From: Membranipora membranacea
Taxonomy: Eukaryota > Bryozoa > Gymnolaemata > Cheilostomatida > Membraniporidae
DNA: 64,000 bases
Reading direction: 5' to 3'
NCBI GenBank assembly: GCA_914767715.1
Contig: OU612072.1
Coordinates: 6,820,001-6,884,000, forward strand
The notes beneath the pieces were generated by a model, which saw nothing but the letters and a program-made list of their open reading frames with translations, did no database searches and was not told the DNA's origin. The position numbers were made by a program, and so were the translations under genes. Positions 213 through 62,871 of this stretch are shown one piece after another. How positions within the stretch are numbered: the first letter of the stretch is position 1; each line of letters begins with the position of its first letter.

Positions 213-920
213 ATGAGGATTGTTCAAGTCACATTAGCACTTTTAGGCGCTGCTGTAACATCTTCTCTCGCACAAAGTTTAGGTAAGAACCCTCATCATG
301 TTTTGCCGGATGTCCTCTTTGTGTAATGTACAGTAATACATGAACGTGTATCAATCAGGGATCAAGCTTGTGATTTCTCTTATAGATAGTTATGAAAGTT
401 GTTGGAAATTCCTTTTTCTACATATATTAATACAAGACAAAACAAAGAGCTGTCTTGTCAGCACTCAGAACTCTGCAGAGTTTTAGACTTCCTCATCGAA
501 AGATCCTTGCCGATATATATTGATGTTGATTTCGGCTTGAGATGTCTATGTCATGCTCATCTTAGATATCTTTTTTTTTCCAGTAGCTGCACTGTGTCTG
601 AGTCAAACCCAACCATGTAAGTACATCACTGAGTTGATAAATACATTTATGCATTGTACAATGTGTACACATATATATATATAACTTTATTGGCGACCAA
701 AGTCGTCTCAATGGAAGTGTTATGCACTCAGTGCCAGAAATAAAAATAGAATCAAAAAAACGGCTGAATGACCATTTCAAAGAGAAATGAGCTTGTTTGA
801 GCGAATAAATCCCTAATGGTATCGAAAATATGTTACACCTCATTAAATAGCCAGCATGTGGAATGTTTCTTAATTTTGTTCTTTTTTCTTATTATTATAG
901 GCAATATAATAGTGTCGTGA
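213..920 (+). CDS. secreted two-Cys micro-peptide, gene 1 (3 exons)
   Basis: Exons are 213-282, 584-616 and 901-920 (stop TGA 918-920). Introns are GT-AG and phase 1, and the joined length is 123 nt, giving 40 residues. Exon 1 encodes a signal peptide, MRIVQVTLALLGAAVTSSLA, with an SLA cleavage site. The predicted mature peptide begins with Gln (possible pyroglutamate) and reads QSLVAALCLSQTQPCNIIVS, with two cysteines seven residues apart. This could form a single disulfide loop, unlike the four-Cys majority of the family. An AATAAA lies at 1044-1049. An X-box-like element is at 76-89. The start is the family ATG-AGG context. No known family is recognised; secretion is inferred from the signal peptide and function is unknown. 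Confidence 0.75.
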
Positions 921-1043
921 CAGCATGAAGCGACGGTGTCAGACCATTTCTACATTATTTCTGTTGGGCAGCAGCAGCAGGTCTATGATATGTTTTTGTT
1001 ATTAGTACAATCTGTATACTATGGTTAATGGATAAATCAATTT

Positions 1044-1049
1044 AATAAA
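1044..1049 (+). terminator. polyadenylation signal of gene 1
   Basis: AATAAA lies 124 nt after the stop codon at 918-920. Confidence 0.6.
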
Positions 1050-1440
1050 CCACTTACTACACAGTAACTGTTCTTCCACTCATGAGTTTTTTTTTCATAT
1101 AATTAAATACACTGCCTCATCTCAAATAAATACATTACCCATGGCCAAGTATCAATAGTAGGGAGTATCAGTTTACAAAGCTGACTGCTTACACTACTGG
1201 GTAATTATGGTCATTTCCGAGATATAGCAAACATCAAGCGTATATTTTTTTATGCTATTAGCGAGACAGTAATTAAGCATATCCTGTCATCCTATGGCAT
1301 TATAGGTAGAAGTATTCTGCAATAGCTGTGAAGCATCATGAACTGATGAAGGTTGTATTGCAGTTCCCATGTTCCCATGTCGCTTTGGACAAAAGAAGGA
1401 TTTCAGCTGCAACTATACGATTATCTGCAGCTTGAATGTA

Positions 1441-1690
1441 GTAGGAGGTAGCTCAGTTGGTTAGAGCGCCAGACCTTTAACGCGCAAGCGTTTGAGGTCC
1501 TGGGTTCGAATCCCGCTGCAGTCTACTGACTACTGGGCTCAAATGACGCCCCAGATGTGCTTCAACCTGCCTGCAAACTGAGAGCAACTTGGCTTGATAT
1601 TTCTCAGTCCTCGGACGGAGACAACACTTCGGGTTTTAACCCAAATTTAATTGGCAACTGCTTAGAATGAACTCTGTCTCAATGTGATCA
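1441..1690 (+). mobile_element. tRNA-derived SINE
   Basis: The head resembles a tRNA, with a pol III A box (TAGCTCAGTTGG) and B box (GGGTTCGAATCCC). A non-tRNA body follows (CTACTGACTACTGGGCTCAAA and onward). The post-head sequence is shared with the copies at about 10931 and 18073 (gactact, gtgcttcaacctgcctgcaaactgagagcaa), so this is a dispersed repeat and not a tRNA gene. The 3' limit is approximate. Confidence 0.75.
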
Positions 1691-1938
1691 AGAAAAATGG
1701 TAACCACCTACAAAACACTTAGTATTACTTAATGACTGGACAACGATATTGAAAGTCTCACCTGCCAACTGTAACTATAACGATATAACTGAAGAAAGAG
1801 CTGCTAAGGCTACCTATCGCAAGGAATCAGCTTGGGCATAGAATAGCAGTTTTGCTAAATTATTTCCAAATTTTGCTAAATTAATTTATTCAAATATTAT
1901 GCAAATAATCCACAAATAGAAAGAGTGCATCAAATTGA

Positions 1939-5561: not shown

Positions 5562-7062
5562 ATGAGGATTCTTCTTTTAAATGTAGCCCTTTCAAGCGCA
5601 CTTCTGACATCTTCTGTTGCAAAAGGTTATGGTAAGAACCCACATATTTACCCAGACCGCCTGTTTGTTTCATGTCCATTGATAGTAAACTTATAGTTAT
5701 GTACTTGTATTGCACAATCAAGCTAACAATTTAAATATTTACATTTGTTTGAATGTTACATTTTTTTTATAGCTATGAGCACAAGCTAACACTTGAGGCT
5801 TTCCTCAGAGGTCATTACAATCTTCACAGTTTATTGTAGCAGTTCATTAAGTAAACTCCCCCATTGAGCTTGCCTTGTATAAGTTATTTTGATATTTAAT
5901 TCAGCTTTATTTGTCGAAGTCCACTTGTTAGTCACTGAAGTTCAAATAAGCCTCATGGCCTTTTGCCAGTCAGATATTAAAATTGAAACATCTTGATTTC
6001 AAACACAATAAGTGTTTACATCTTGTCTGTAAACTAAACATAGAGAAGTTTATGACCTTGTACTGAAGAGCCGACAATAAATTGGTAATTGCTCTACAAA
6101 ATTATAAACACATCCCAACATAACCATATCGACAGATCTGAAGTCCTCAAAATAATTCAAGCTAACAATAAAAAGGATGGGGAAGGTCCTTGTTGTACAT
6201 AGGAGTCAAACTTTATAGCTTGAACCCTTTGGAGGATTGGACAGGATTTGTGACCAATAGCATGTATGGTCCGGATGACCGCCTTTGAGTCTATGCTCCA
6301 TATCAGGTGCTGTGTGACTCTACTTAAACTTATTAACCTGTGCTTGTACTTTTTTTTTGTGTCATTCGGGAGCGCTTGGACTTCAGACTATATATATATT
6401 TATCAAACACTAGTTAAGGATCTTAATTTATAGCAAAAACAATAAAACAGGCAACTTCAAATATATGTATCAGCTAATTGTCACGTTGTAAAGCAGAGAA
6501 GCTGCCTTTTGACCCTGGCTATCTCTCAGTAAGATCGTCTCTTGTATGAATGTTGAAGATCATTTCAACGCAATGCTTATCTCTGATTCTGTTTTTTCTT
6601 GCTTTTAGATTTTGAGAGTCGGTGTTTTGTCAATGGGAACAGATGTGACGAAAATGGTGAGACTATTCCCTGCAGCTTAAAAGCATTATGCATAGTCCTA
6701 CGCTTAAAATATAAAAACAGAATGAATAACAAAATTAATGAAAGTTTGTTATCTTAAATTGAAATGATAATCCTCTGCATTTCATCCATGGTATTTCTTA
6801 GTGGCTATCTCTCTAATAAGACCTATTTGGAGATCTAGGTTTGAAGGCATGCTTGTGACATTCAGGTGTGGCCAAACAAAACTGGCAAGCAATACAAAAC
6901 AACAATGATAATGTGTTCAAACCAAAATAAAAATCTTAATAGTAGGCCTACCTAGCAGTAGGCATATTTAATTCCAAAACACTTTGAAGTACAACCATCT
7001 ATTATTTTGTCTCAATCTTTTCTCCTTTTTTTCAATTTGTAGGATTTGTAATATCATCATGA
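5562..7062 (+). CDS. secreted two-Cys micro-peptide, gene 2 (3 exons)
   Basis: Exons are 5562-5631, 6609-6656 and 7043-7062 (stop TGA 7060-7062). All introns are phase 1; 138 nt joined gives 45 residues. The signal peptide is MRILLLNVALSSALLTSSVA. The mature part begins KGYDFESRCFVNGNRCDEN and ends with GFVISS from exon 3. Its two cysteines are six residues apart, the same spacing as gene 13 at 45478. The exon 3 acceptor carries the family's TTTTTTTCAATTTGTAG motif. Its 5' flank is paralogous to that of gene 1 but lacks 16 nt including the X-box. No AATAAA follows closely; ATTAAA near 7150 is a possible signal. Function is unknown. Confidence 0.72.
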
Positions 7063-7880: not shown

Positions 7881-7889
7881 AAATCTGAT

Positions 7890-7903
7890 ATTGCTATGGT
7901 GAT
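7890..7903 (+). promoter_or_regulatory. X-box-like site upstream of gene 3
   Basis: ATTGCTATGGTGAT lies 125 bp before the ATG at 8015 and matches RYYNYYATRRNRAC at 13 of 14 positions. Confidence 0.55.
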
Positions 7904-8014
7904 ATATTGTTCTTCATTCTTTGCCTACCAGTCAAGTCATCACTAGGTAGTTGATGGCTGATAGAGGTTGTACTGCTATAGTCTTCCGTTTTGACTTACC
8001 CCTGTTCACCGATC

Positions 8015-8896
8015 ATGAGGGTTCTTATAGTCACTGTAGCCCTTTTAGGTGTTTTTATATCACATTCTCTTGCACAAGGTATAGGGAAGTATTGAAACAA
8101 CTGAAGACATTTTTATTTGATAGCAGCAGTTTTGTTGAGGCGAACTCAACGAAGCTTTTTTGGCCTTCATCTAAGCGTCATTGAAATACCTTGCCATAGT
8201 TTTCAGGCGGTATCAGTATTGCCACCCAGGGGGTCATTCAATTAGAAACATTCAAAATTGCAATCAGATGAGTGAGTGAGCAAGACCTGCTAGGCTCTCA
8301 CTTTCAAATTGCTCACTCAATGATACAACTATATAAATTCTGAATGAGTGATCTGGGAGCATATTTGTCTAATTGAAAGAGCAGGTGAGTGATCACTTTG
8401 AGCAATGCGATAGTGAAAATTCGTTTGAGTTAAACATTACTCATTCTATTTGAAAGACCTGTCTGTTTAGTATATAAATAATATGCGCAGAAAATTATCA
8501 ATTCAGTTGTTACCCTTGAGTGAAATGCATCTGTTTGTTCAACTGTTATCATAATAAGAAATACAGAAAATAACAAATGTCTTGCCATCACTCTGCACGC
8601 TCTATATAATACTGAGTATATGATAATTCATAAAATACCCTCTGTCATTGGATGATGCCGCCTATATATTGATGTTATTCCCGCCTATATATGTCAACGC
8701 AGTGTTTATCTTAGGTTTATTCCTTTCTTTCTAGCAGCTTCAATCTGTGAGTGTCCACAAAACTTGTGTCTCTGTGACGGTTAGTGTATTTACTGGTGTG
8801 TAGAAGACCATACTAGATACAAAATCTGCTGCACCACAGCTCAGTATTTATTTTGCAGTAGGAATCGTAGTTAATAGGAGTGGACAAAATGGTTAA
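8015..8896 (+). CDS. secreted four-Cys micro-peptide, gene 3 (exon 3 uncertain)
   Basis: Exon 1 (8015-8078) encodes MRVLIVTVALLGVFISHSLA plus Gln. Exon 2 (8735-8779) encodes AASICECPQNLCLCD with the C-X-C-X4-C-X-C core. Both boundaries are phase 1. The exon 2 acceptor is a tandem CTAG/CAG (NAGNAG), so one Ala may be optionally spliced out. A candidate exon 3 (8859-8896, acceptor TTTTGCAG) gives VGIVVNRSGQNG and a stop after a 79-nt intron. Its frame is kept in the duplicate at 16011, but the usual TTTTTCAATTTGTAG acceptor is absent. Splicing to the exon 3 at 10365 is also phase-compatible. The breakpoint of the 7-kb tandem duplication falls right after exon 1. Confidence 0.55.
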
Positions 8897-9566: not shown

Positions 9567-10375
9567 ATGAGGATCCTTATAATCACTGTAGCTCTGTTAA
9601 GTGCTTTTGTAGCATATTCACTTGCAGGTGGGTGCATAGGATATCATATCTCGATAGGAATAATATTTCTGGACATTAGCTTGTTCTCTGCCTGAGCATA
9701 ATCAATATTGAAATACAATATAAAAATAGTTTTTTATGAAATTATATATCATGTAAAGAAAAAAATGAGTACAATGTTCCTAAGACTTTGTACCACATAG
9801 CCAAGGATCAAGGCAGTAGTTACTCCAGCAAACAACTAAGGGATTCTATGCATCCACCGAGCAAAATCCACAGTATCATGGTGTAATAAATAATTGATGA
9901 AATACTACATGCTTTATCTAAATCTACTCGATCCTGTCCTAGAATTCAACACTATCAATTCTTAGAACCTCCTTTTTTTGTTTTCAGGTGTACCATGTAT
10001 GTGTTCAATAACCTCATGTCCCTGTGGAGGTATGTATATTATCTCAAGGCTAATGAGATCAACTGAATATATCTATGTGTAGTTTTCAACACTCACAGAC
10101 AGATAAAGTGTTTGGGAAAATAATGTATTGTTGTAACTTGTCTGTCAAAGAAAATTTATTACGAGATCTAGATTTGTCAGGGCCTATTTTCCCATTGTTT
10201 AGGGCCACGAGACTTACCAAATAATACAACTTTGTGATCAGATAAGGAGCATACGATCAAATTACTTATAAACCCATTAGCCTTGAGCAGACTCACGCAG
10301 CTCTCACACCCAATAACATCATAAGTGATTTCTCTCAAATTGTCTCCCCTTTTTCAATTTGTAGACATAGAATAA
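9567..10375 (+). CDS. secreted four-Cys micro-peptide, gene 4 (3 exons)
   Basis: Exons are 9567-9627, 9988-10029 and 10365-10375 (stop TAA 10373-10375). All introns are phase 1; 114 nt joined gives 37 residues. The signal peptide is MRILIITVALLSAFVAYSLA. The whole predicted mature peptide is GVPCMCSITSCPCGDIE, only 17 residues, with the strict C-X-C-X4-C-X-C core. There is no pro-region. The exon 3 acceptor is the family motif TTTTTCAATTTGTAG. AATAAA is at 10487-10492. The duplicate at 16716 keeps all splice sites but has a nonsense codon in the signal peptide. Two disulfides or CXC metal chelation are both possible; function is unknown. Confidence 0.8.
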
Positions 10376-12751: not shown

Positions 12752-13406
12752 ATGAGGATTGTCCTATTCACTGTAGCCCTTTTGGGTGCTTTGGTATCAT
12801 CATCTCTTGCACAAAACTTTAGTAAGTATCCTTAACTACATAAACAGTATAGTTTGTAGCAACAGTGTTGTTGGACACTAACTCAAAACTGATGATTCGC
12901 CTGAAGAATATAATTATTGACTCAGGCCAGATATATTTTTCCATATTGTTTATCAATTTCATGCGTATAAATTTGATAGCTGTACAGCCAGGGATCATTC
13001 GCCTTATAACTTTAAGTTTAGAAGATGCTTATCCAAATACTTTGCACAATCCTTATAGTTTTGTGTAGAAAGATTCTGTTTTGTCGTATTTCCAGATATA
13101 CCATGTCTCTGTGTAACAAGCCCGTGCCCTTGTGCTGGTGAGTATATTCTGAGCAGCTTGAAAGCATCTGCTAAATATCATTATTTTACATAGATCGACT
13201 TTTACAAAGGTTTTTAAATAAATAATTCAATGATTGTGCGGCAGGTTTTCATGAATGATTTTGAATCGTATTCAAGGCATAGTCATAACCAACGAAGAAG
13301 CAGCTACGAAGCATCATTTCAAAGCGCCGACTGGCAAACCTCATGATCACCATCACATATAAATTTCTCTGTTTTAAAACATCCTCTTTTTCAATTTGAA
13401 GGTTAG
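12752..13406 (+). CDS. secreted four-Cys micro-peptide, gene 5 (3 exons)
   Basis: Exons are 12752-12821, 13096-13137 and 13402-13406 (stop TAG 13404-13406). All introns are phase 1; 117 nt joined gives 38 residues. The signal peptide is MRIVLFTVALLGALVSSSLA. The predicted mature peptide is QNFNIPCLCVTSPCPCAG, with the C-X-C-X4-C-X-C core, an N-terminal Gln (possible pyroglutamate) and a C-terminal Gly right before the stop (possible amidation donor). The exon 3 acceptor is AAG where paralogs have TAG (TTTTTCAATTTGAAG), which may weaken splicing. Its duplicate at 20861 extends instead to LIG and a stop. AATAAA is at 13514-13519. Both terminal modifications are inferences. Confidence 0.75.
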
Positions 13407-15886: not shown

Positions 15887-15931
15887 CAGCTTCAATCTGC
15901 GAGTGTCCACAAAACCTGTGTCTCTGTGACG
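15887..15931 (+). pseudogene. orphan exon 2 of duplicated gene 3
   Basis: The acceptor TTCTAG/CAG and donor GGTTAGTG flank a 45-nt phase 1-1 exon encoding the same AASICECPQNLCLCD as gene 3. The duplication breakpoint lies inside intron 1, so no signal exon precedes it in this copy. A candidate last exon at 16011 (VGTVVSRSGQNG then stop) also survives. It could only be expressed by splicing to another gene's exon 1, for example 12752-12821, which is phase-compatible. More likely it is a dead fragment. Confidence 0.6.
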
Positions 15932-16715: not shown

Positions 16716-17523
16716 ATGAGGATCCTTATAATCACTGTAGCTCTGTTAAGTGCTTTTGTAGCATAATCACTTGCAGGTGGGTGCATAGGATATCATAATT
16801 CGATAGGAATAATATTTCTGGACATTAGCTTGTTCTCTGCCTGAGCATAATCAATATCGAAATACAATATAAAAATAGTTTTTATGAAATTATATATCAT
16901 GTAAAGAAAAAAATGAATACAATGTTCCTAAGACTTTGTACCACATAGCCAAGGATCAAGGCAGTAGTTACTCCAGCAAACAACTAAGGGATTCTATGCA
17001 TCCACCGAGCAAAATCCACAGTATCATGGTGTAATAAATAATTGATAAAATACTACATGCTTTATCTAAATCTACTCGATCCTGTCCTAGAATTCAACAC
17101 TATCAATTCTTAAAACTTCCTTTTTTTGTTTTCAGGTGTACCATGTATGTGTTCAATAACCTCATGTCCCTGTGGAGGTATGTATATTATCTCAAGGCTA
17201 ATGAGATCAACTGAATATATCTACGTGTAGTTTTCAACACTCGCAGACAGATAAAATGTTTGGAAAAATAATGTATTGTTGTAACTTGTATGTCAAAGAA
17301 AATTTATTACGAGATCTAGATTTGTCAGGGCCTATTTTCCCATTGTTTGTGGCCACGAGACTTACCAAATAATACAACTTTGTGATCAGATAAGGAGCAT
17401 ACGATCAAATTACTTATAAACCCATTAGCCTTGAGCAGACTCACGCAGCTCTCACACCCAATAACATCATAAGTTATTTGTCTCAAATTGTCTCCCCTTT
17501 TTCAATTTGTAGACATAGAATAA
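16716..17523 (+). pseudogene. duplicate of gene 4 with nonsense codon in the signal peptide
   Basis: Exons are 16716-16776, 17136-17177 and 17513-17523. All splice sites, the CMCSITSCPCG core and the AATAAA (17635-17640) are preserved. Codon 17 of the signal peptide (16764-16766) is TAA where gene 4 has TAT. Translation would stop after 16 residues, so no mature peptide would be made. The rest is almost identical to gene 4, so inactivation is recent, or the stop could be polymorphic or an assembly error. Confidence 0.8.
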
Positions 17524-41012: not shown

Positions 41013-41131
41013 GATTTGTGTTCAGCTTTGCAATCCATTGTCGGTAAAAGGAACATAAACCTGTCCTTTGCAGCTACTACATTTGTAATGACTGTAATTG
41101 GTCTGTGGCAAACGATGGGTTCACAAACTAT

Positions 41132-42779: not shown

Positions 42780-44285
42780 TGTTCTTATAAATTTCAATCA
42801 CATTATACTAAGTGATATCAACATCCTTGTGGTAATGCAAAGGCTTTCGGTTTGTGGCTTATGGAATTGTTTTCTAATTATTTTCTTTCTAGCTATTGTG
42901 CGTTATGACATTCCGTATTTGGGAAGCGGTTACATGATATGAACATTAATTAATATAACCTGACTTGACATGTATTCACATGTCTTATGAAAGATGATTT
43001 GTGATGTCAAACCTTTCTTTCATCCAAAATTAATTGGAACCACCTAAACATCCAAAAGTATATAAGCATTGTTCAATGGATCTTGAATGACTTGCACAGT
43101 ATGAGCAGAATAAGATTTTGGTATCGGCGCAGCCCTAAAACCAGGAAAAATCGCAAATAGTTTTAATATATATTTTCCATAGTTTGTGCATAACTCTAAA
43201 AAGTCCCCTTCATGAGTAAGTGTCTGGAAAGATTTGGTCAAGAACTGGTGTGCTTATCTGGAGCAGGACTGGAAATAATTGAAAGAAAAAAATCATACAT
43301 GTTAACCATTGCCAATGATAGCGCATTTAATATACTGTGTGTTCTTTTTCTACAAAGGAATCACATTCTTATTACACATTTTAAATATTGACATTAATTT
43401 ATTGGCAATTGTTGTATTCGTATCGTCTCTTTGGTGAAAGCATTCATATACCATGTCATATGCATGCAACTTGCTAGTGCAATGTTTATTCTTAGTTTGA
43501 GACAAACACTGTACAAAATCCACATCTGGAATTGTGAAGTATAAGGGTATTGTGTTCCAGTTCATTCGAGCAAGCATATCGGTCATTAGCAGGATTTAGA
43601 TATTGATGTTACATTCTCGCCATCAACAAAATTAGCTTAGATTAGATTAGCTCATAAAGTCCTCATAGTAGAGAGTATACATATTGTGATACTTATATCA
43701 TTACATATAGCATGTTCTTGATTTGTTTCGAGAATATTTATTTTATTGTATCATAGATATTGAGGATGATATCTGATGACATTCCCTCCAACGTCATGAG
43801 ACAAATTCTTCTACAAAACAAAAAAAGATCTCTTTTACCAAGAATATATAATGGTGATGGGAGGAATTTTAAGATATTGATTTGATTTGATAATAACAAT
43901 TATTTATGTGTTATCACCATTTTGAATTGGATTGAATAGCATTTGTTTCTTGTCGAATCCTCTCAAAGTTTTGTTTTGATTGGTATATCCTTGGAAGCCC
44001 TCAGGGATGCACTGCACTGCACTGCACTATACTATGCATCCTATCAATTATTTTTATTTTCATTTCATTGAGGACATGTTGCTTGTACTTATGAATAAAG
44101 AAGAAAAAGTTAGCCTAAATAAATCTTGACAATTTGAAAAATTATTATCAGCTTTCCAAGGCAATCAATCAAGTGGTGCATTTGCGGCGCAGTGTTAGTA
44201 AGCCATAAATCTGAGCTCTTAAACTTGGCAGAGATGGCAAAACGCATCCTTCCTGCAAACTCAAAGGTTGTGACATGATAATAAT
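42780..44285. other. inverted flank and unrelated insert
   Basis: 42840-43020 is an inverted copy of the 5' flank near 29260-29440. 44150-44290 is an inverted copy of intron 1 of gene 14 type (near 48000-48100). The middle part shows no gene; GCACTGCACTGCACTGCACT at 44009-44030 is a short simple repeat. Confidence 0.5.
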
Positions 44286-44291
44286 ACTAAC

Positions 44292-44352
44292 TTGCGAGTG
44301 TAGATGTAACTAAAGCACTCATAAGAGCTACAGTGAATAGAAGAATCCTCAT
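44292..44352 (-). pseudogene. orphan signal exon, minus strand (gene 12)
   Basis: The minus-strand exon 44352-44292 encodes MRILLFTVALMSALVTSTLA and ends phase 1 at a GTTAGT donor. It is almost the same as exon 1 of gene 13. The X-box is at 44492-44505. I found no matching exon 2 or 3 on the minus strand down to 42.6 kb, where gene 11 begins. Either exons were lost to an insertion, or it splices to gene 11's exons (phase-compatible, but skipping that gene's own exon 1). It is treated as incomplete. Confidence 0.6.
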
Positions 44353-44491
44353 GGCTGGTGAGCTGTTGTGATCGGAAAAGAATAAATAGAAGTCTCAAAG
44401 ATAGCCAATGATATAGCAAGGCAACTTGTTGTGGGCAGTGACAATCTCAAAATAGCTTGCATTTCAGGAATTTGATCATTTCATCAAACAT

Positions 44492-44505
44492 ATCACCATA
44501 GCAAC
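44492..44505 (-). promoter_or_regulatory. X-box-like site upstream of gene 12
   Basis: On the minus strand, GTTGCTATGGTGAT lies about 153 bp before the ATG at 44352. Confidence 0.55.
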
Positions 44506-45324
44506 ATGAATATCGTTCACGTAGTCATCAAGCAAATGAGAAAATATTATTCTTTTAACAGCGCACCTTCCGTAGGATCTTCCATTGTCAGAAAATACGC
44601 ATCATCATGAGTGTTGCTATTAGGATAATTCATGATTCTGTGTCAACAGGTACCACCAAATATTTTCAGATTTCAAAACAACTAGTTGACATGACATGAA
44701 CATGAGATGATGAAACCTTGCATGATATGGTAAAATATGAAACAAAAATGTCTGAAATGTTACTACTGCACCCCTGTCACAAAAGAATAAAATTATATAC
44801 AGACATGTACACAGCCAAATCAATCATCATGTCACATATATTCACAAGATTAGTTCACCCAGTATTTCTGTTGAGCTGATGTTTCTTGCAACATACAATG
44901 TTTTTTACACATGAAACTGTTTTAGATACTCTGGTTCCAATTCTATACCTTTGAGTTTGTGTAAAATGTGGCCATTTTCAGAAAAAGGTTGCCCAACAAT
45001 GACCCATATAAGGGACTCTGAAAACAAATTGTTTGCTCACTCAAAAACCATTGCTATCAATATGCCCTACAACCATGACCTATGACGATGCATATTTTCT
45101 GAGATGTATCCTACCAAAATGGGGTTTGAAAGTGTATCCGTGTAATACTGTGCTAATCAATTGATGGAATCGTCATTTATCATGTTTCATATTCAACCAT
45201 AACATGCCATGTTTCATCATCTCCTGTTCATGTCATTTCTTGTCGCTGTCTCAAAAATTGACATTTGAAAAACATTTTGTGACGCCTTGTTAAAATAACT
45301 GATGACTAAGTGAAACATATCCAT

Positions 45325-45477: not shown

Positions 45478-46364
45478 ATGAGGATTCTTCTATTCACTGT
45501 AGCTCTTTTAAGTGCTTTAGTAACATCTTCTCTCGCAAGTAAGTATTGTTAATATGTCACAACATTTGAGTTTGTTGGCAGGATGCGTTTTGCCATCTCT
45601 ATCAAGTTAAGAAGGTGATCACAAGTTGTTTAATTGTCTGGATTTAGTAAATTTGAATTGGTTTCCTATAATCATAGGTACTAGCAACATCTGCAAAGTA
45701 TTATGATTTCTTTTTATCACACCACAAAATGCTTTTAGATTTATTTTGATTTAAAACATGATGAAGTGATAAAAACGTCTCATGCTTGTCCCACCTCACC
45801 AATATATAAAAATGCATTTCATCACTACAATGCTAATTTAAGATTTTTTTTTTAGCAAAACCTTGTATTGGGTCAGCGGAAGTATGTTTCTCAGGTATGT
45901 ATATGAATGAATGAATGAATGAATGAATGAATGAATGAATGAATGAATGAATGAATGAATGAATGAATGAATGAATGAATGAATGAATTAACAAACGAAC
46001 GAACGAACGAACGAACGAACGAACGAACGAACGAACGAATGAATGGATGAATGAATGAAAGGATGAATGAATGAATATTGTAGCAATCCTAATTAAGTAT
46101 TAAGTAACTCTGTAACTCTGTAACTCTGTAACTCTGTAATGATTGATTGCTTCTATGTGACATCCCTGAGGATCCCAAGTATATTCCAATCAAAACATAC
46201 CTTGAGAATAATTATTGTGAGACAAAATTAACTCTGATCAAAAGTTAAATTCAAAATGGTATATTATTGTTATCAAATCACATGCACTATTTTAAACTTC
46301 CTCCCATCACTATTAAATATTATTGATTATAATGTTTCTTTTTGCAGAAGAATTCGCCTCATGA
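45478..46364 (+). CDS. secreted two-Cys micro-peptide, gene 13 (3 exons)
   Basis: Exons are 45478-45538, 45856-45894 and 46348-46364 (stop TGA 46362-46364). All introns are phase 1; 117 nt joined gives 38 residues. The signal peptide is MRILLFTVALLSALVTSSLA. The mature peptide reads TKPCIGSAEVCFSEEFAS, 18 residues with cysteines six apart (C-X6-C), as in gene 2. The signal exon is near-identical to those of four-Cys genes, so diversity is concentrated in exon 2. Intron 2 starts with a long GAAT/CGAA microsatellite only 8 bp after the donor. AATAAA is at 46506-46511. Function unknown. Confidence 0.75.
45903..46075 (+). repeat. (GAAT)n/(CGAA)n compound microsatellite
   Basis: Tandem tetranucleotides, first TGAA then CGAA then TGAA again, lie inside intron 2 of gene 13 directly after the 5' splice site. 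Confidence 0.95.
46105..46138 (+). repeat. 8-bp tandem repeat TAACTCTG
   Basis: Four tandem copies of TAACTCTG in intron 2 of gene 13. Confidence 0.9.
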
Positions 46365-47887: not shown

Positions 47888-49540
47888 ATGAGGATTCTTT
47901 TACTAACCATAGCTATATTAAGTGCTCTCGTAACATCTTCTCTTGCGTGTAAGTACTATTAGCATGTAACAACATTTAGTTTGCAGGCAGTATGTTTTTT
48001 GCCAACTCTCCTTAGTTTAAGAGCTCAAATTTATGGCTTACTATCACTGTGTGGCATATGTATCGTTTGTATCATTGATTGCCTTGGATAACTGATGATA
48101 ATTTTGTTTGATCGTCCGGGTTAAGTAAGTCCTAAATAATCTTCCTGTTATCATAAGTAGAAGCAAAATTTGAGATTTCCGCTCATCACTTCAAAGGTTG
48201 CTTTTGGATTAATTTAGATTGAAAATGCGATGAACTAAAACCTCTGATGCTTGTCCTACCTTTCCTTTATTTTGTAACTTATCTCAGCTCTGTGATGCTC
48301 ACCGTAAGGTCGCCTATTGTAACCACGCGGCTTGTTGGTGAACAGGCCTGGATTAATTTAGGAAACAAAACACATATTTTAGCCATGTCACACCAGCAAG
48401 CCCACTGTCATTGAACCACAATATTTTGCTGCCCAGGCAATATAATGATCAAGGAATGTGCACACTATATGTTACATGCTAATGCCCTCCCACCACACTG
48501 CACAGACATGACCACATCCCACAGCTGTCCTACTAACTTCTTCAAAACAAAACATTATGATACATTTCTGCCTGCCATAATAATATGAATTTGCATCGAC
48601 TGATGAAGAAGAAGAAGAATCCTGATTGGTTAACTATTGGTCAGATTGTTTCTAATTGGATGATAATTTTAGATGGTTTTGTAACAAGTCAAACAACCTT
48701 AACCTTGACATGGTCTATACATTGAGCTCAACAATTTTATATGTCTCTTCTGAGGTTCGATATTGTTAATAAAAATAAGAGATATATAGTCATTGCTAGC
48801 GTGTTACAACTGAGTTAGTATGTATTTGGAAACGATGCCCTTATTATAACCGCAGTATGCTTGACTAAGTTTTTACCACTCATGGACATTAACCACGCGG
48901 CTACAATACGCGACCTTACGGTATTCAATATTCCCCTTTTTCTTTTCCCTAGGCGAACTGTGTGACGGAACTGTGGAGGCATGTCAATCTGGTTAGTGTA
49001 TCCACCATATATTAAGAAGCTGTACAAAAAACCTCAATGAATAAATAAATATGATGATTTATGGTATCAAATCATTACTAATAAGTTGAAATGAATAATG
49101 GAACCAGGTACCAATCTAAATTACAAATATTTAACTCTAGATCTAGAATTGAATGCTTCTTTGTGACTTTCCTGCAGGTTCCAAGGGATGTACCAGGCAA
49201 AACAAATTAATGATTATATGTGGGTTTCATTTACGATTGATGAACACACTTCCCTAGAATGAATTACAAAGTTTGGTCAGGAGGAGATAATCACTAAATT
49301 CAGAAAATACTTTTAATGAACTGAGTATTGATAATAATGATCATATATTAGCCGTAACCATTCTTAATAGAACTTTTGTCTGGATTTTTATATCGACAAA
49401 ATTTCTATTAAAAATGGTTTCGGCTGATATATTATCATCATTATCGAAACACATTCACTCGGTTCAACCTGCTCCTGTCACCATCACAAATTAATCTTTA
49501 TCATGTTATTTTTTGTTCTGTAGATGTCATCGCCCAATAA
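47888..49540 (+). CDS. secreted three-Cys micro-peptide, gene 14 (3 exons)
   Basis: Exons are 47888-47948, 48953-48991 and 49524-49540 (stop TAA 49538-49540). All introns are phase 1; 117 nt joined gives 38 residues. The signal peptide is MRILLLTIAILSALVTSSLA. The mature peptide reads CELCDGTVEACQSDVIAQ. It has three cysteines, the first created by the exon 1/2 junction codon T|GC at the predicted cleavage site. The odd number leaves one free thiol or allows dimerisation. Intron 1 carries a 622-bp TIR element (48301-48922). Intron 2 carries a transposon end (to 49325) and a hairpin (49330-49445). AATAAA is at 49638-49643 and 49671-49676. Confidence 0.72.
48301..48922. mobile_element. 622-bp TIR element in intron 1 of gene 14
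   Basis: The left end ACCGTAAGGTCGCCTATTGT and the right end, whose reverse complement is ACCGTAAGGTCGCGTATTGT, continue as inverted repeats to about 31 bp (CCACGCGG against CCGCGTGG). No transposase is seen, so it is a probable MITE. The flanks show no clear target duplication. Confidence 0.75.
49230..49325 (-). mobile_element. end fragment of the 3.25-kb TIR element family
   Basis: The reverse complement starts CTCAGTTCATTAAAAGTATT and then follows the left end of the element at 22095 for about 95 bp (ATTATCTCCTCCTGACCAAA). The other end is not present nearby. Confidence 0.75.
49330..49445. repeat. large hairpin (51-bp arms)
   Basis: Arms 49330-49380 and 49395-49445 are inverted repeats at about 43 of 51 positions around a 14-nt loop. 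It sits in intron 2 of gene 14. The right arm resembles intron 2 of gene 13 (AAATGGTATATTATTGTTATC), so the left arm may have arisen by inverted duplication. Confidence 0.7.
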
Positions 49541-49679: not shown

Positions 49680-51430
49680 TCTAACCAATGAGAACCTTTG
49701 TTATTCTCATAAACATTGTTCCGGGTATTTTCCTACTACTACATAATAGTTTGGGACATTTTAAAGACAAGGAACGCAAAGCCTGTTTAAATCCCTTGAG
49801 AGGGATAGTAATTGCACTTTGCATGTCACCCTTGGTATAACAGGCAAAGTACTATTAATAGTTCACAAACATGTTGAAGGCATTGATTGGCCACTTACTC
49901 ATGTCCATTTTTTGCATGCTGCTCAGACCAAAAGGGACAATTGTTAATGACTAGCAGATAATATTCAGATCTATGTCCTGCTTGTTGATTGATGAACTAG
50001 CTGGATCATAGTACCCTTAACTTATTTTACATCTCCAGATGTGGCTTGCAAACAGTTGTTGGCCACAACAAATGAAGAATCAGTGCATTAGCAGCTTAAC
50101 GTGTAAGACAAAAGCTTTCACCAAGCAGTCATTAGGTATACAACAGATATAAACAATTGACCATTTTTGGAGTAGAGATTGTCTTTCTTTCAAAAGAACA
50201 TAACATGCTAATAACTATCCCTCTAAAACAGTCACTTTTTCAAAAAAAACATTTGATTCTTCATCCATTTTTGCCTATTTTGGCTGCACCGACTAATCAT
50301 GGGTGACGGAAAGGATGGATTCACCTATCATATTGAAGGACTTTTCATGTCAATACACGTCAGGTTAGGCTTATGTTGTATTAATTAATGTTGACATCAT
50401 GTAACCACTTGCCAAACAAGTCATAACACCTAATAGAAAATCATTTGAAAATATTTTGATGAAATTGCTTTCATAACGGCCACAACCCAAAAGCCTTTGC
50501 ATTACCACAAGGATCTGTATATCACTTTTGTTAAGGTGATTAATATTTATATGAGTGAACAAGAAACTATATGATAAGCATCAAATAGAAAATCATCCTG
50601 TCTCTATTGTGATATATTTTGTGAGACCATTGTTTGCCTCATATTAAACCCATAACAGTTATTACTATGGTAGTTGCTGCATACTACTAGTGGGTCAGTA
50701 TATTGCTGTTTATTCCATTTCAACTGACTGCAAGCTGAACACAGGTGCTTTTGTAACAGCCAGCATCAAATAGTGCAAACCATGGTGGCAGCTTTTTTTA
50801 AATTAAGTGAATGAGTAAATGTTGAATGTTGAGCTGTTGAGGATTGATTTTTGCTGTTGTCTGCAATCCTTCGTCTTGTGATCATGATGATCAAATGCTA
50901 TTTGGTACTCCCAGATTGATTTTGTGACCAATAAACAAATAAATATAACAATAAACACACAATTATTTGTATGTTCATGGTCACACCAGTCCAAGTTCAG
51001 CATACATTGTCACAATGGGATGATTGATAGGGGAAAATGAGCCTCAGTTAACCTTATGTGCAGGTCGTTCAATGCAGTCCTAAGGACCAATCCAGTAATA
51101 TATCTTATTTATGTAACAAAATCTGTTTGTTGTTCTGTTTATCTACACATAAAACAAAACCATAATTTCGGGATTTCTTGGCGCAACTCAAAAGAAGCTG
51201 AATACTAACTAGCGTTAAGTCAAGCTGATTTGGTAGTGACTAAATGACGGCTAGCATCAAATAGTGCAAACCATGGTGGCAGCTTATTTAAAATCAAGTG
51301 AATGAGTAAATGTTAGCAAGGAACTAATTTCACTATTTAAAGTAGTTGCAAAAAGGTTAAGCTGTCCTGCTGATTCCTAACTTTATTTTGGCTATGGCTG
51401 TCAATGTCAGGCTCATCCTTACCTTTTTCA
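49680..51430. other. spacer and signal-exon-less 5' region
   Basis: Paralogous to 28620-29820 with added insertions. The X-box has decayed (TGTCTCTATTGTGAT near 50600). The leader ends CTGAACACAGGTGCTTTTG at 50737-50755 instead of continuing to an ATG. A 65-bp direct repeat (AGCATCAAATAGTGCAAACC and onward) flanks 50830-51245, which partly matches intron 1 of gene 11. Confidence 0.55.
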
Positions 51431-51439
51431 TGCTTTCAG

Positions 51440-51704
51440 GTTTATGTGTGTGTATAACAGACCCCTGCCACTGTGACAGCAACGGTAATTACTTTTCTTG
51501 TACCATAAAGGCATCTACATGGTGATATTATGCAAATTAGCCATTAATGCTGACTGAATAGATAAGATCAGCGATTGAGTGAAGTCAGTCATATGCAGAT
51601 CATGCAATTATTCTCCATACACACACTTTCTACTCATATCATATTATGTGTAACTTGGTCACAACTTATTTTTTCAATTTGTAGGAAACACCATTTTTTT
51701 GTAG
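51440..51704 (+). pseudogene. four-Cys mature and tail exons without a signal exon (locus 15)
   Basis: Exon 2 (51440-51484, phase 1-1) encodes GLCVCITDPCHCDSN. Exon 3 (51685-51704) adds GNTIFL and TAG (51702-51704). Splice sites, including TTTTTTCAATTTGTAG, are intact, and AATAAA is at 51794-51799. No signal exon lies between 49680 and here. The leader is joined to intron sequence, as at 29612. Expression would need splicing from another gene's exon 1 (for example 47888-47948, phase-compatible). The core is fully open, so loss of function is recent or the exon is still used. Confidence 0.6.
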
Positions 51705-51804
51705 CTCCGCAGAGCACTTCATCAGATATTTCCATCCTCAATTGGTGTGCAAGTCAGATTATGTAAATTGATACTATGAATTTTTTAGTGAGAAATAAAA
51801 TCTC

Positions 51805-52387: not shown

Positions 52388-53425
52388 ATGAGGTTGCTTC
52401 TAGTCACTGTAGCCCTAATAGGTGCTTTGGTAACATCTTCTCTGGCATGTAAGTATCTACAATTCTCATCAACGTAAGAAAGCACAAATTTGCATACTTA
52501 CGATCGGCATGCCATGGTTGGCGGCTTCATGAGTCAAGCTAATGTACTTTCCAGCCAAGGATCTAATCGGTTATTTATTTGAATACTGCAGAAGGACAAA
52601 AGCAATATAAAGTCTGGCAGTGAGTTCTGCAGTAGTTATGCGATTTCTTCACTTGGAAAAATCTCATACCTCTTCCGGCTAAAAAGCCAAATTATGTAGA
52701 GTAAGAAATTATCCCCCTTTCTCAACTATGCTAATCAAAAAACCAAAACCCATCTATTCTAGATAACTACTGCTAAGGTATATGAATTGAGTTATCTACC
52801 ATTTTGCCATGTGATTGACGATGAAGACATATTGGTTTTTATTTTATGAGGGGAAAATTAGTAACTTGTAAACCCTGGGATTGGAAACTTGGGCTGGTAC
52901 AGGACTAGGCTTTAAAGCCTCATAGATGAGCCTAGATGACAATGACAATGCAATAATTTTACCAAGCATTGCTGTGATTTTTTTCCACGGTTTTACAATG
53001 AATGCTAACTCATCATAGTATAAGATAAGATAGCTCTAGTTCATCTAAGTCGCAATGTTAAAAGGAGCTTCAATATCAAGCTTATCAAAGATTTGCTTTT
53101 TTTTAGTACCATTGGTTCCATGTCTGTGTGCGATTGGCCAGTGCTCCTGCAACGGTAAGTGAATTCACTGTAGATTAAAACAATCAGCTCAATAGGATGT
53201 AGTATATTAACTTTAAACTATTCATCTCGCCAACAGATACTTCGATTAGTAGGATCCTTTCTGAGCTCCAATTGTGACCGAAATAATATCTTTGCAGCCA
53301 ACACAACGTTAAGGACACAGTGGACAGATGTGATAAAAAATGTTAAAATGTGTCTTCTGACTCACGTTTCCTCTGTTTTTCAATTTACAGGCGATCTCCC
53401 GTTTGGTATTACCATAGTATCATAG
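52388..53425 (+). CDS. secreted four-Cys micro-peptide, gene 16 (3 exons)
   Basis: Exons are 52388-52448, 53107-53154 and 53391-53425 (stop TAG 53423-53425). All introns are phase 1; 144 nt joined gives 47 residues. The signal peptide is MRLLLVTVALIGALVTSSLA. The mature part begins LPLVPCLCAIGQCSCNG and ends DLPFGITIVS. The C-X-C-X4-C-X-C core is intact. The exon 3 acceptor is TTTTTCAATTTACAG. AATAAA is at 53540-53545. It is the closest relative of gene 7. Unlike gene 7, no Gln follows SLA because the exon 1/2 junction differs. Function unknown. Confidence 0.8.
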
Positions 53426-58327: not shown

Positions 58328-58410
58328 ATTTTCAGCAATTTAGGCAAAATTTCAGAGAGAACTTTTGTTGAGCACCTAAGCTGCTTGGCGTCACGCTCAA
58401 CAATCAAATT

Positions 58411-58838
58411 CTTCTCGCTGTAGCATTCTTTTGTGCTTTTGTAGCATCATCTCTTGCAGGAAGTAAGTATCCCTACCGCAATTAAACATAACTTGATGGT
58501 AGTAGTATTGTTGTCCACTAACTCAAAACTGATGTTTCACCTAAAGAGTGTCATTGTTGAATCATTGTTATTTTCATTTATATGAAATTGATTACTGTTG
58601 TCTTCATGCACAATCACCAGTACACAAATTATCCTTTCTCATATTTTCAGGTATACAATGTCTCTGTGTAACAGACCCTTGCCCCTGTGCTGGTGAGTAT
58701 ATTCAGAGTAGATTGAAGGCCACTTCTAAACAATGCTATAAATGGTTTAATGCTCGAAAAGGTGTTTAAATAAAATAAATAGGTTTCTCTCTTTTTTGAA
58801 ACCATCTTCTTTTTCAATTTGTAGATACGATTGGATAA
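58411..58838 (+). pseudogene. family member 17: start codon lost next to LINE 2
   Basis: The signal exon remnant (58411-58462) reads ILLAVAFFCAFVASSLAG, but ATG-AGG is missing (CAATCAAATTCTT instead of CAATCATGAGGATTCTT). Upstream is LINE 2, and a TGA precedes any ATG in frame. Exon 2 (58651-58692) encodes SIQCLCVTDPCPCA; exon 3 (58825-58838) adds DTIG and TAA. Splice sites are intact, including TTTTTCAATTTGTAG, and AATAAA is at 58947-58952. The mature region is undamaged but there is no translation start, so it is called a pseudogene. It is closest to locus 9 and gene 5. Confidence 0.7.
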
Positions 58839-58959
58839 GATCAATGAGCCACAACGGATTTTCTCGTCATCTACCAATGTTCAATGAACTTTCTCACCAA
58901 AACGAAACAACATAAATATTAGACATACCAATAATGAAAGTCACCCAATAAACTCTAAT

Positions 58960-61310
58960 AAAACATCAGAAGTAAAAAAAAAATGTCTCATACTTCCAGA
59001 TACATTGTCATTTTTTGAGTTGATGTAAATGCGAATTTAAATTTCTTATGGACCAAGGCCTGTGTTCAAAGCAGCACCAGTTTCCAATCAAAACCATCGA
59101 TCTCCAGTGAGTCATTTGTGAAATTTTGTAGCTATAAAAAAAATGACAGGGTCAGTTTATATCCTTCCTTGTAAGCAAGAAAGTTTGTACACATAACGTG
59201 CCCCCTTAGGTATCAAAGGTAGTAAACTAGTAAACTTGTAAAAGAGGAAGGAAGGCGTTGTGATTTAAGGCAGGCAAGAACAGCAAAATTCAAAGAAAAT
59301 ATGTTTTATGTCTACACCTCAGACCAATGACTCACCAGACTTACCTTGTATGTACTGAGCACCATTTATTTCTTTTGGTAACCAGGATTGAGAGTAAAAT
59401 GAGAGAGATTACATTTGCTTATTTCTTCTACAGGAAAGTTAGTGTCATACAATGAAGGATTGGACCATTCATTTACTGTTATCCCGCTGTAGCATAAATG
59501 TCAGATGTGTCGGTATTCAGTTGCAGTTTTATTTTAAATCGAAACGGAACCTCAAAAAACTCAACTCAAAGCAAAAAAATATATACTACAGTGTCTCCCA
59601 GGACATTAGTAGTGTTAAGAAGCATGGAAGTGACAAAAAGTAGTAGCTTACTCCCCACCCTAACCTTGGTGATCATAGCCTTCATAATCATATGCCGCAT
59701 AAGTTGAGTAAACAAATATGTAAACTTGATAATATATCAATAATTGTTATTATTATTTATTCTCATTAATAAACATGATTTAATTTACATAATTGTTTAC
59801 AAGTTCTCTTTTGATAGTTCTGTCTGTTGCCTGATTTAGAAGTCCAAGCCAATGGACTACATAGGATGACCACAAACGAAAATGCACATGATCAAAGGTT
59901 TACATGGCGCACTTTACTAGCTGGTTCCGATGAGTGTGTGTTTGTCATGCATACAGTGTAAGGTTGTTAATATGAATTTTGAATAAGCTAAGAGAATGTC
60001 ATAAAGGCCTTATCAAAGAGCTATGGCCTGATGAAAACTAAAACACACAAGGTAGGCTTAGATTCTTACATAGAGATATGTGAGGGGATATTTAGGGGGA
60101 GGGGAAGAAATGTATTCCATTAATAGACTGAGTACTGTCCCACCATTTATACTCACCAGGACAAGTTGAAGCCAGTAAAAACTGTATGCAGAGATTCCAT
60201 ATTACAATAAAGTTGCGACAGTAGTTACTGATCTACGCACTATGATTAAAGAGAAACAGCACACAGACAGTGCATACTATGTGTATGTTTTTTTCAGCCC
60301 TCAGAACCTCTATACTACCTAACTGCAATACCCTTCAGCAATAAAAGCCTCAGAGTGCTCCTCGAGGAGGCATCTCCTGTCACTGAGGCTATAGAATCAG
60401 CAGGTACGTTTAGAATCTGTTGAAAGAGGCTACATAGCCAATTATAATAATATGTATACTGGAAAGTACTTTTTAATACCAGGGACTAAAGAGTCCAAAA
60501 TTGATCGTAACTATGAATGTGTGGTGAGTTTGAGTAGTGGAATTTTGCACGAATGGTGGGTGCCTTGACGATAGGGACCCTGCGCCGATGAGTTGATGGA
60601 AAGCAAACTTCCCTGCACGTGTTTGGCTTAGAGTACAAGCATGTGAGTGAATGGGCAAACATTGTTGCAACGAAACAATGACTAGTTGGCAGCATCCAAG
60701 GTTGCGCAACAGCGTAAGCACACTGATATGTCGAAACACCGAAACTGATAATATGCACTGATGGCTTGATGAGATGGATTGAGAAGCTCAGCAACACATA
60801 GGGCTGGCTTCCTGCTGCTGGGCCCAGTCATGAGGAGGTTGTACTAGGGAATGCCTTAAAACAGCACTTGAAGGCAGTAAAGTTTTAAGGGGGAACACAA
60901 ATACATACATACATAGATGTAACATAATAGTTCAACTACAGGAAAACTGCCTGTGCACCAAGAAATTTTGCTACATGTACCATAGGTCGATCCGATTAAA
61001 ACCACAAAGATTAACTATACCCTGGAAAGGGTTATTTTGTAGGAATATTGTTAATCAGTCAATCCGTAATTTGGCAACTGTACATATAAGCCACACAACA
61101 TTATGATGATTGGCTAGTCTCATCGAATTGTATGACAATCAATCTGGATCATTCAGGACTGACAAGGAAAATGAGATTAATCTATGCAAATCGACCCATT
61201 CCTATGCATATTAATTGGTTTCACAACAATAAAATGAGACTCCCTTTCGACACGTTTTTTGTTGTTTAAATTAAAGTCACTGGGTATTTTCTGAATGTAT
61301 CGCAATAATT
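58960..61310. other. 3' flank of locus 17, then intergenic
   Basis: 58970-59520 is paralogous to the 3' flanks of genes 5 and 9. The rest holds no recognisable gene. 60490-60840 shares a block (GAGTTTGAGTAGTGG, GGTGCCTTGA) with 11570-11660 and looks repetitive. Confidence 0.5.
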
Positions 61311-61317
61311 TTCTAGT

Positions 61318-61649
61318 AAAAGTGACAGTCCTATTAGAAAAGTGGATATATTACCCCAGTAAATCGGATATTGTGAGTTCACAGGGCAATTAAAAATAAT
61401 AAAAAAATGAAAATTGTGGAAAATAGCGTTTAGTTTTTTTTTAATATTTTAGCCTGGATCATAGTGGATCATAGTGATTTATTGCCTCCCCCTGACCACT
61501 ATTATCCACTATGATTGCAATTTTCAGACTTTCCAGCAGTTTTACTGCAACGAGGTTCACAGGCTGTTTTATTTCATATGCCCTAACAACTTTTCAGCCT
61601 GAGATCTCTAAAACCATACCAAACATGGCCTAGTAGGACTGTCACTTTA
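61318..61649. mobile_element. candidate MITE with AAGTGACAGTCCTA ends
   Basis: The left AAAAGTGACAGTCCTATTAG and the reverse complement of the right end, TAAAGTGACAGTCCTACTAG, are inverted repeats about 310 bp apart. The interior has a small palindromic zone (GGATCATAGTGGATC ... ATCCACTATGAT). No frame. Confidence 0.6.
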
Positions 61650-62029
61650 ATAATATTCAGTTTTCAGGAGTGTAAACCTTAGTCATGAATGTATGTGTGT
61701 ATGAATGCGTCAAATTTGATGACTTAGCAATGATCAGCCAAATGTTACCACGATCAGATCAATTTTCAACAAACAGATTTGGAGAGACACTCATAAATGT
61801 TTTGCATATGTTTTACCAAGAACGGGTCAGGTTTGGATTCATTACAATGAAACTTGCATAACTACAGCAGCAATAAATCAACTATTAAATACTTTGGCCT
61901 GTGTCTCATCTTTATTAAGCAATGCAGAGAATTCAAGCTAAACAAAAAATTGAAGTGTATAGATTTTTCGAATGAAGCAATTCAATGCAGAATTTAAATT
62001 TTAAATTTTGTTGTATATATAGAAAACAA

Positions 62030-62035
62030 TTTATT
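62030..62035 (-). terminator. polyadenylation signal of gene 18
   Basis: TTTATT on the plus strand, AATAAA on the minus strand, 86 nt after the stop of gene 18. Confidence 0.5.
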
Positions 62036-62120
62036 TATATTTTTGACGAAACAAAACTCGATTTTAGTGTTCACTACTACAAAAGATGCACAAACTGCTC
62101 TATTACAAATGTGGACTCTA

Positions 62121-62871
62121 TCATGGGATTCCTTGTCTGCCACCACCTGTAATTGAAATCAAACAACAATAGAGGAGTGTCCAACCATTGAGAGAATGTG
62201 TGGATCACCATTATTACTGAACAAGGGATGGCGCAAGTCTTGTTAACTATGTTTTTAATAAAAGACAAATCTTGTTAAATTCCAAGTGTTTTATGCGAGC
62301 AACTTCAGACCAATCAATATGATTAAAGGTTAAAAATTCAAACTCATAAACAAGGTGTCAAAAGAAAGTGGTATATGAACGCCAACTATTAAGCAGAGGA
62401 TACTGTGGTACAAATTGACCTACTACCGTTCACCAATGTCTGAAAAAGGTGTATCTCTGAAATGCTTGTGTTTACTTCGTAAAGATTTGATGGCTAAATA
62501 ATTTACTTACCGCTGCAGGGGCAAGGCGCTCTCACACAGTTGCAAGGTATGTCAAATGGTCCTAAAAATGCGGAAAAAAACAACTTCAATATTTCAAGAG
62601 ACATTCAACATTTTATCTATCAACCACCTTTCACAAGAGATGACCTTAGCAATCACAAACAATGACATAATACATTTATTGTTTATGTTATGCATTCTCT
62701 GACAATACATGTAGAGCGCAGACTCCTGCTAATTAAATATTATAGTGATAGATAATTTCACTCACCAGGTTGGCCAGAACTGCCAGGATTGCCAGGGCCG
62801 CCATAATACCAAGCAGATGTTGGTGAGGCCAGAGCGCAAAGCACTAATACAGCAAGATAGAGAATATTCAT
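62121..62871 (-). CDS. divergent secreted four-Cys peptide with Gly/Pro spacer, gene 18
   Basis: Minus-strand exons are 62871-62766, 62561-62511 and 62146-62121 (stop TGA 62123-62121). Both introns are phase 1; 183 nt joined gives 60 residues. The signal peptide MNILYLAVLVLCALASPTSA differs from the rest of the cluster. Exon 1 also encodes a collagen-like spacer, WYYGGPGNPGSSGQP. Exon 2 gives GPFDIPCNCVRAPCPCS with the same C-X-C-X4-C-X-C core. Exon 3 gives GGGRQGIP through the acceptor TTTCAATTACAG. Shared core, phases and acceptor motif make it a true but older relative. I saw no X-box upstream. Function unknown. Confidence 0.75.

Follow-up and report, generated by a model that had tools for sequence, protein, structure and literature searches.

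What does a run of very small, cysteine-containing exons in a bryozoan genome encode? The question is raised by 64,000 nucleotides of Membranipora membranacea DNA (the window, contig OU612072.1, C8:6820001-6884000 in a 339-Mb genome of 18 contigs), in which an earlier note had described a cluster of secreted micro-peptide genes. The answer proposed here is a birth-and-death array coding for very small secreted disulfide peptides, probably outward-facing effectors, a reading to which we assign a probability of about 0.6. The family is read, from its sequences, as a new group of rapidly evolving secreted disulfide peptides whose genes would evolve in the manner of conotoxin genes. The flanks were read for 100 kb on each side of the window, giving 264 kb in total; positions in this longer stretch, used below for flank units, become C8 positions by adding 6,720,000. 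The GC content across the window is 34.5-37.7% in 4-kb steps. Introns, poly-A signals and a retrotransposon without long terminal repeats give the genome an animal-type character. A cellulose-synthase model (PF03552), used as a probe for a tunicate origin, has no match there, and among the controls it responds only in bacteria.

Predicted three-exon genes with a cysteine micro-exon

Twelve three-exon precursors of 37-60 residues (A, B, D, E, G, H, I, L, M, N, O and P) were rebuilt at the positions where the earlier note had placed them, together with a thirteenth, locus C, whose last exon is uncertain. The in-frame joining claimed for the 12 is also recovered: the length of exon 1 leaves a remainder of one on division by three, exon 2 is a multiple of three, and the splice sites are canonical GT/AG. 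The core exon measures 33-51 nt and the introns are about 0.2-1.6 kb long. Every intron is in phase 1, and exons of different units can therefore join in frame.

The whole window was scanned for micro-exons of the form AG-exon-GT in phase 1/1 with two spaced cysteines. Of 18 distinct sites, 17 are family exons and the sole other site, 44267-44305, is unrelated; the scan misses A, in which the second cysteine spans a junction, and the broken unit J. Four-Cys micro-exons with the spacing C-x-C-x4-C-x-C in the family frame number 14 in the window versus 0 in 30 dinucleotide shuffles, and the shuffle mean for C-x6-C in that frame is 0.57. The other two frames yield one four-Cys and 13 C-x6-C exons (2 and 11 per frame), which are probably for the most part the same TGT-rich exons misread; the frame used for the family is the one fixed by the exon-1 junction. 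A promoter/exon-1 profile built from two seed units gives 25 window matches at E up to 4e-4, of which a large share are partial, and a DNA profile finds 14 exon-2 copies at E < 0.01, all 14 stop-free with their cysteines kept. The copies are related by duplication, so that such counts are not statistically independent.

The units also share control signals. A promoter block close to TGTTGCTATGGTGATATATTT has 15 matches in the window versus 0.01 expected, and all 15 precede a unit or relic and point in the orientation of that unit. The example at 7889..7909 (+) is TGTTGCTATGGTGATATATTT itself, and the other 14 start at 9422, 12596, 16570, 28032, 29477, 30633, 33063, 38698, 41126 (minus strand), 44486 (minus strand), 45324, 47778, 50599 and 52239. 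Even with three mismatches allowed, no match is found for A, B, G, L, P or S. The block resembles what we take to be a TATA region with a half match to the RFX X-box. Genome-wide, where all pattern counts are lower bounds, at least 32 matches are found at no more than two mismatches, 21 of them in the array, and a reversed control gives 0. Five of the 11 matches outside the array are identical near-copies (TGGTGCTATGGTTATATATTT) on the minus strand of G000:C6:2546479-2908210, spread over 360 kb. Similarly, an exon-3 acceptor block, TTTTTCAATTTGTAG, occurs 12 times versus 1.0 expected, and all 12 copies precede an exon 3. AATAAA lies downstream of exon 3 in most units and is absent there in B and K.

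The units are described in order of position, on the plus strand unless stated. Gene A (213..920; exons 213-282, 584-616 and 901-920; MRIVQVTLALLGAAVTSSLA and QSLVAALCLSQTQPCNIIVS) has a two-Cys C-x6-C core, and gene B (5562..7062; exons 5562-5631, 6609-6656 and 7043-7062) is also two-Cys. Locus C (8015..8779; exon 1 8015-8078, exon 2 8735-8779) has the four-Cys core ICECPQNLCLC and is doubtful, with the usual exon-1 donor changed, no family-type exon 3 downstream and an uncertain last exon; an orphan exon 2 that copies it and has no exon 1, locus C2, lies at 15887..15931. Genes D (9567..10375; exons 9567-9627, 9988-10029 and 10365-10375) and E (12752..13406; exons 12752-12821, 13096-13137 and 13402-13406) are four-Cys, and F (16716..17523) is a broken copy of D in which an in-frame stop interrupts exon 1. 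The four-Cys gene G (20861..21523; exons 20861-20930, 21204-21245 and 21510-21523) is modelled with the caveat that a promoter remnant lies near 19662-19726 and about 1.07 kb of other sequence precedes exon 1. This interval, 19727-20794 by comparison with E, includes four copies of an 87-bp tandem repeat.

Gene H (28178..30071; exons 28178-28241, 29830-29874 and 30052-30071) is four-Cys and composite. Its exon 1 belongs to a unit that lacks exons 2 and 3, and its exons 2 and 3 belong to the next, damaged unit, from which exon 1 is deleted; the join spans 1.6 kb between units, which is a caveat on the model. Gene I (30787..32080; exons 30787-30850, 31732-31776 and 32046-32080) is four-Cys. J (33228..36830) is a broken two-Cys unit that has lost its start codon and donor, with an exon 2-like stretch at 33814-33853 (SLCITGEKGCGIN) and a possible exon 3 at about 36715. 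K (38728..39859; exon 2 39246-39287) has lost its start codon and retains its exon 3 region. Three units follow on the minus strand: R (40969..41116), a truncated exon 1 relic with a promoter block; the four-Cys gene L (41720..42596; exons 42533-42596, 42048-42092 and 41720-41736); and T (43640..44506), with an intact exon 1, an M-like exon 3 region and no recognisable exon 2.

Gene M (45478..46364; exons 45478-45538, 45856-45894 and 46348-46364) is two-Cys, and a simple repeat, (ATGA)n, fills 45903-46076 of its intron 2 with about 43 copies. Gene N (47888..49540; exons 47888-47948, 48953-48991 and 49524-49540) has a two-Cys core and a third cysteine right after the predicted signal cleavage site. 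Q (50599..51796; exon 2 51440-51484) retains its promoter block and exon 3 region, and its exon 1 is deleted at the same place as in the downstream unit of H. Gene O (52388..53425; exons 52388-52448, 53107-53154 and 53391-53425) is four-Cys, and S (58395..58965; exon 2 58651-58692) has lost its start codon and retains its exon 3 region. The longest precursor, of 60 residues, belongs to the four-Cys gene P on the minus strand (62121..62871; exons 62766-62871, 62511-62561 and 62121-62146), in which a Gly-x-y-like stretch follows the signal.

What is conserved and what varies

The signal exon changes more slowly than its surroundings. In six pairs, namely L/97k, M/91k, 189k/184k, M/T, H1/I and E/G (numbers denote flank models and H1 the exon-1 unit of H), 22 of 384 sites differ versus 503 of 3707 in the noncoding flanks (5.7 versus 13.6%, Fisher P 3e-6). 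The pair D/F (1/61 versus 27/986) was omitted because F is broken; M/T and H1/I also include a broken member. For exon 2, nine pairs were compared (E/G, C/C2, K/S, H/Q, L/97k, M/91k, 189k/184k, I/O and D/F), four of which, D/F, C/C2, K/S and H/Q, have a broken member. No nonsynonymous cysteine change is seen in these pairs versus about 10 expected (P 4e-5), and the pairs E/K, E/S, H/L and Q/L, omitted as overlapping, show none either. Codon omega, from very short alignments, is 0.44-0.58 in exon 1; the core has 0.54-0.80 as it stands and 0.72-1.22 once its cysteines are excluded. Single pairs depart from their flanks in both directions: exon 2 of K/S is slower (3/42 versus 85/342, P 0.003) and that of H/Q is faster (9/45 versus 37/459, Fisher P 0.014). 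The H/Q excess, noticed only on inspection, is not taken to prove positive selection. As judged from these alignments, the signal and the cysteines are held and the intervening residues drift or diversify. The frames and phases, the blocks shared at promoter and splice site, the slow signal exon and the retained cysteines together lend good support to the secreted micro-peptide gene cluster.

Several points weigh against the proposed array of working genes. A number of units are dead, so that some intact frames may be recent pseudogenes. In E/G the signal exon differs at 5/70 sites and the flanks at 21/686, and this pair therefore shows no extra conservation of the signal. Over the nine pairs, the overall rate of exon 2 matches that of noncoding sequence (44/390 versus 657/5604, or 44 differences seen and 48.6 expected). 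The earlier note had regarded an exon 2 that evolves exactly like the introns, with random stops, as a refutation; the overall rate does match, and the cysteines and the stop-free frames of the 14 profile-found copies do not follow it. The cysteine retention is itself partly biased, as cysteines and freedom from stops were among the marks by which an exon 2 was recognised, and copies with a lost cysteine may be under-counted; at least one flank copy has three. A pure filter effect is disfavoured because 14 of 14 exon 2s found by the profile at E < 0.01 are open with cysteines kept. Only 8-20 codons enter the codon estimates, the trees behind them are saturated and some of the units used are broken; faster-than-neutral change is confined to H/Q, a pair picked after inspection.

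Alternatively, the locus could be a decaying repeat family with leftover frames and no present translation. The many broken units (F, J, K, Q, R, S, T and C2), the noncoding rate of exon 2 and the retrotransposons nearby would all fit such decay, whereas the conserved signal exon, the zero loss of cysteines, the complete models, at least 19 in number when the flanks are included, and the kept promoter and splice blocks would not, and we regard this explanation as improbable.

The cysteine core occurs in two classes. Named exon-2 copies in the 264 kb number 31, broken units included: 19 have C-x-C-x4-C-x-C and 9 have C-x6-C, and the remaining three are one each of C-x7-C, C-x2-C-x4-C-x-C and a three-Cys form. 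In the window the C-x6-C class comprises A, B, M, N and the broken J. The earlier note had held the four-Cys core to be fixed; all eight of its cores are present, in nine loci, and their spacing is fixed within the window, whereas the family as a whole includes the second class and the flank variants. In 9 of 10 two-Cys exons the spacing is exactly x6, which equals the distance from C1 to C3 and from C2 to C4 in the four-Cys core. Since the loss of one linked pair would leave C-x6-C, the two-Cys class fits bridges C1-C3 and C2-C4, and we infer this pattern for the four-Cys peptides. A ladder of C1-C4 and C2-C3 is disfavoured because the loss of a pair would leave x8 or x4.

The ladder bears on the possibility that these are beta-hairpin antimicrobial peptides of the protegrin kind. 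Protegrin has the C-x-C-x4-C-x-C spacing with the bridges C1-C4 and C2-C3. The spacing is thus shared, and multi-copy immune genes are common. Besides the C-x6-C relatives, which misfit the ladder, the absence of a long pro-domain and the charge speak against it: if the signal is cut after residue 20, a site chosen by eye, 12 of the 13 mature peptides have a net charge of 0 to -4, and only P has +1 (the uncertain C is included). A protegrin-like identity is accordingly very unlikely. The two-Cys class bears likewise on secreted metal-binding peptides that would use CXC thiolates. Secreted cysteines usually oxidise, and two-Cys paralogues of the same gene structure lack two of the four ligands. 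The model would be the copper sites of yeast Mac1, for which the available text of PMC4992176 gives CXCX4CXCX2CX2H. The first four cysteines are spaced as in Mac1, and none of the 13 peptides has the further CX2CX2H ligands at that spacing, leaving metal binding the least probable of the explanations weighed here. Of the roles offered by the earlier note (defence, signalling, venom-like action or CXC metal binding), the last is thereby weakened, as is a cationic form of antimicrobial defence.

The two classes also speak to how the units arose. A promoter/exon-1 tree places two-Cys genes in three places, and a tree of exon 3 and the 3′ untranslated region joins J, N, M and T (94) and puts A in their vicinity (74). 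Three independent origins of two-Cys genes were considered and dropped in view of the latter tree. Exon exchange is the simpler account for J, as the exon-1 and exon-3 trees disagree, and H is its clearest case. A bolder version, which we consider doubtful, is that the array works as a combinatorial kit of phase-1 signal, core and tail exons. Damaged units would lend exons, H would be a working chimera and orphan exon 2s such as Q would be used; the products would have a new two-bridge fold of overlapping C-x6-C rings and a defensive or venom-like outward action.

Extent of the array and neighbouring sequence

The positions 213..62871 given earlier do contain the genes and cover only part of the array, which extends over about 137 kb, with exon-1 profile matches (E up to 1e-3) from C8:6,779,124 to 6,916,394. 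Seven flank models are complete, with exon 1 starting at 90716 and 97354 on the plus strand and at 174968, 178366, 184315, 188956 and 196272 on the minus strand; for those at 90716, 97354 and 184315 several last exons are possible and the family-like one was chosen. Units at 69789 (-), 74715 (+) and 93341 (+) have exons 1 and 2 and no clear exon 3. Complete models thus total at least 19, 12 in the window and at least seven in the flanks. Short tails are alike in distant members (NIIVS, GGTIVS, GGVIVS, GGTIIS and GSLIVS), by eye in 8 of the 19. P-type genes on the right side carry Gly/Pro/Ser-rich stretches after the signal, for instance GSPGSSGSPGFPGSPG.

Traces beyond the array are few. Of 18 genome matches to a DNA query, 16 fall in the array; the other two are exon-1 units on contig C2, which sit in a copied piece of the array where no core exon was recognised. 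A genome search with protein P finds only C8 at E < 0.01, followed by weaker C8 matches and one on C7 (E 0.18). The four-Cys DNA pattern has at least 23 matches, seven in the array, and the other 16 compare with 19 in a reversed control. Apart from the copied piece on contig C2, no other family locus was found genome-wide.

Database searches agree with the claim that no described family is matched, within collections that hold few animal proteins. The best Pfam match, at E 0.25, is not meaningful, no solved structure matches at E < 0.9, and no homologue is found among 5.8 billion proteins, mostly microbial or metagenomic with few from animals. Scans of viral contigs and genome contigs found nothing. 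Six of the exact cores were looked for in the literature searched, which leaves out most subscription papers, and none appears there in print. In that literature the motif text occurs mainly for transcription factors, metallothioneins and other unrelated proteins, and one paper on plant nodule defensins prints C-X-C-X4-C (PMC3756986).

Repeats neighbour the units in the window. A non-long-terminal-repeat retrotransposon reverse-transcriptase frame lies at 1939-3543 (+) (RVT_1, E 1e-32) and is followed at 3663-3688 by an (AACC)n tract. Its best protein matches are metagenome records, one 99% identical over 58% of the query, and the named matches among those listed are mostly from fish (33-42% identity); public metagenomes thus seem to contain DNA of the source species or of one close to it. 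A second, interrupted set of retrotransposon-like frames lies at 55145-58339 (-), with RVT_1 at E 3e-5, below the Pfam cut-off, and no Pfam match for three frames upstream in the set. The stretches 1441-1530, 10927-11010 and 18078-18160 are transfer RNA-like with a tail and by eye resemble short interspersed nuclear elements; ARAGORN and Rfam report no gene at any of the three.

Predicted peptides and known systems

In the proposed array, a shared promoter block would drive a unit made of a signal-like exon 1, a micro-exon 2 with the cysteine core and an exon 3 of few residues, with a poly-A signal in most units; exon 1 of the P-type would add a short Gly/Pro/Ser-rich stretch. Cleavage of the signal after Ala-20 would leave a mature peptide of about 17-40 residues with either a single C-x6-C loop or two overlapping ones (C1-C3 and C2-C4). 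The bridges would hold the loop, and selection, duplication and exon exchange would vary its surface, as in conotoxin genes. The peptides would most probably act outside the cell, released from gland, epithelial or blood cells, as varied effectors in defence or in a venom-like manner.

This outward-facing role is a guess from the mode of evolution, and it is favoured because that mode matches conotoxin genes. The main rival keeps the same genes and makes the peptides waterborne signals within the species, for attraction, mating or recognition, whose diversity would serve partner matching. The peptides are small, neutral or acidic and mostly of positive mean hydropathy, with no clustered positive charge, and the array copies differ in the loop with the frame preserved, as might be expected of such signals. 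Nothing specific tells against them, and the numbers of copies and wrecks fit either role; signalling is a possibility, well short of an even chance. If the array is transcribed, it would yield a secreted peptide family of about 17-40 residues that standard annotation easily misses, because the core exons are 33-51 nt long and the last exons have few codons. For peptide chemistry it would supply a natural collection of loop variants built on a shared two-bridge frame, and it would be a clear case of signal, core and tail exon swapping in one array outside the much-studied cone snails.

Known systems share parts of this design. Mytilus CRP-I genes are multi-copy, secreted cysteine peptide genes with pseudogenes, as described in the available text of PMC10138031. 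By the same text, CRP-I has a C-C-CC-C-C knottin array, a propeptide and four exons, a set of features absent from the present family. The short Gly-x-y-like stretch beside a small cysteine region in the P-type recalls cnidarian minicollagens, for which the accessible part of PMC7981951 gives 12-16 Gly-X-Y repeats (fewer in some myxozoans) and cysteine-rich domains of the form C...C...C...C...CC; here about 3-8 Gly-led triplets are counted by eye and that cysteine pattern is absent. The micro-exon genes (MEGs) of schistosomes have, in the available text of PMC4350168, a small symmetric exon, a signal peptide and a fast mature part. The units of the array differ in having one symmetric micro-exon per gene, with variety from gene copies and not from strings of micro-exons.

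Two-disulfide beta-hairpin antimicrobial peptides have been described (PMC7761999, in its available part). The family resembles protegrin in small size and in the C-x-C-x4-C-x-C spacing of 19 of 31 exon-2 copies, and differs in not being cationic, in its other precursor and in two-Cys relatives that suggest another pairing. For the mode of evolution the comparison is with conotoxin genes, which have a conserved signal exon, a fast mature exon and a fixed cysteine frame, and for which exon recombination has been proposed; in the T superfamily introns 1 and 2 are in phase 1, and I2 precursors pass from signal to mature peptide directly (accessible text of PMC3862624). The present genes differ in that the core occupies a 33-51 nt micro-exon, that introns are about 0.2-1.6 kb versus more than 3 kb, and that the short type has no propeptide, its core following the signal almost at once, and only the P-type a Gly/Pro/Ser-rich stretch. 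Pfam and the protein collections, which include no toxin-specific library, show no sequence similarity. What the two share is the plan: three exons, a conserved signal and a variable core set on a fixed cysteine pattern.

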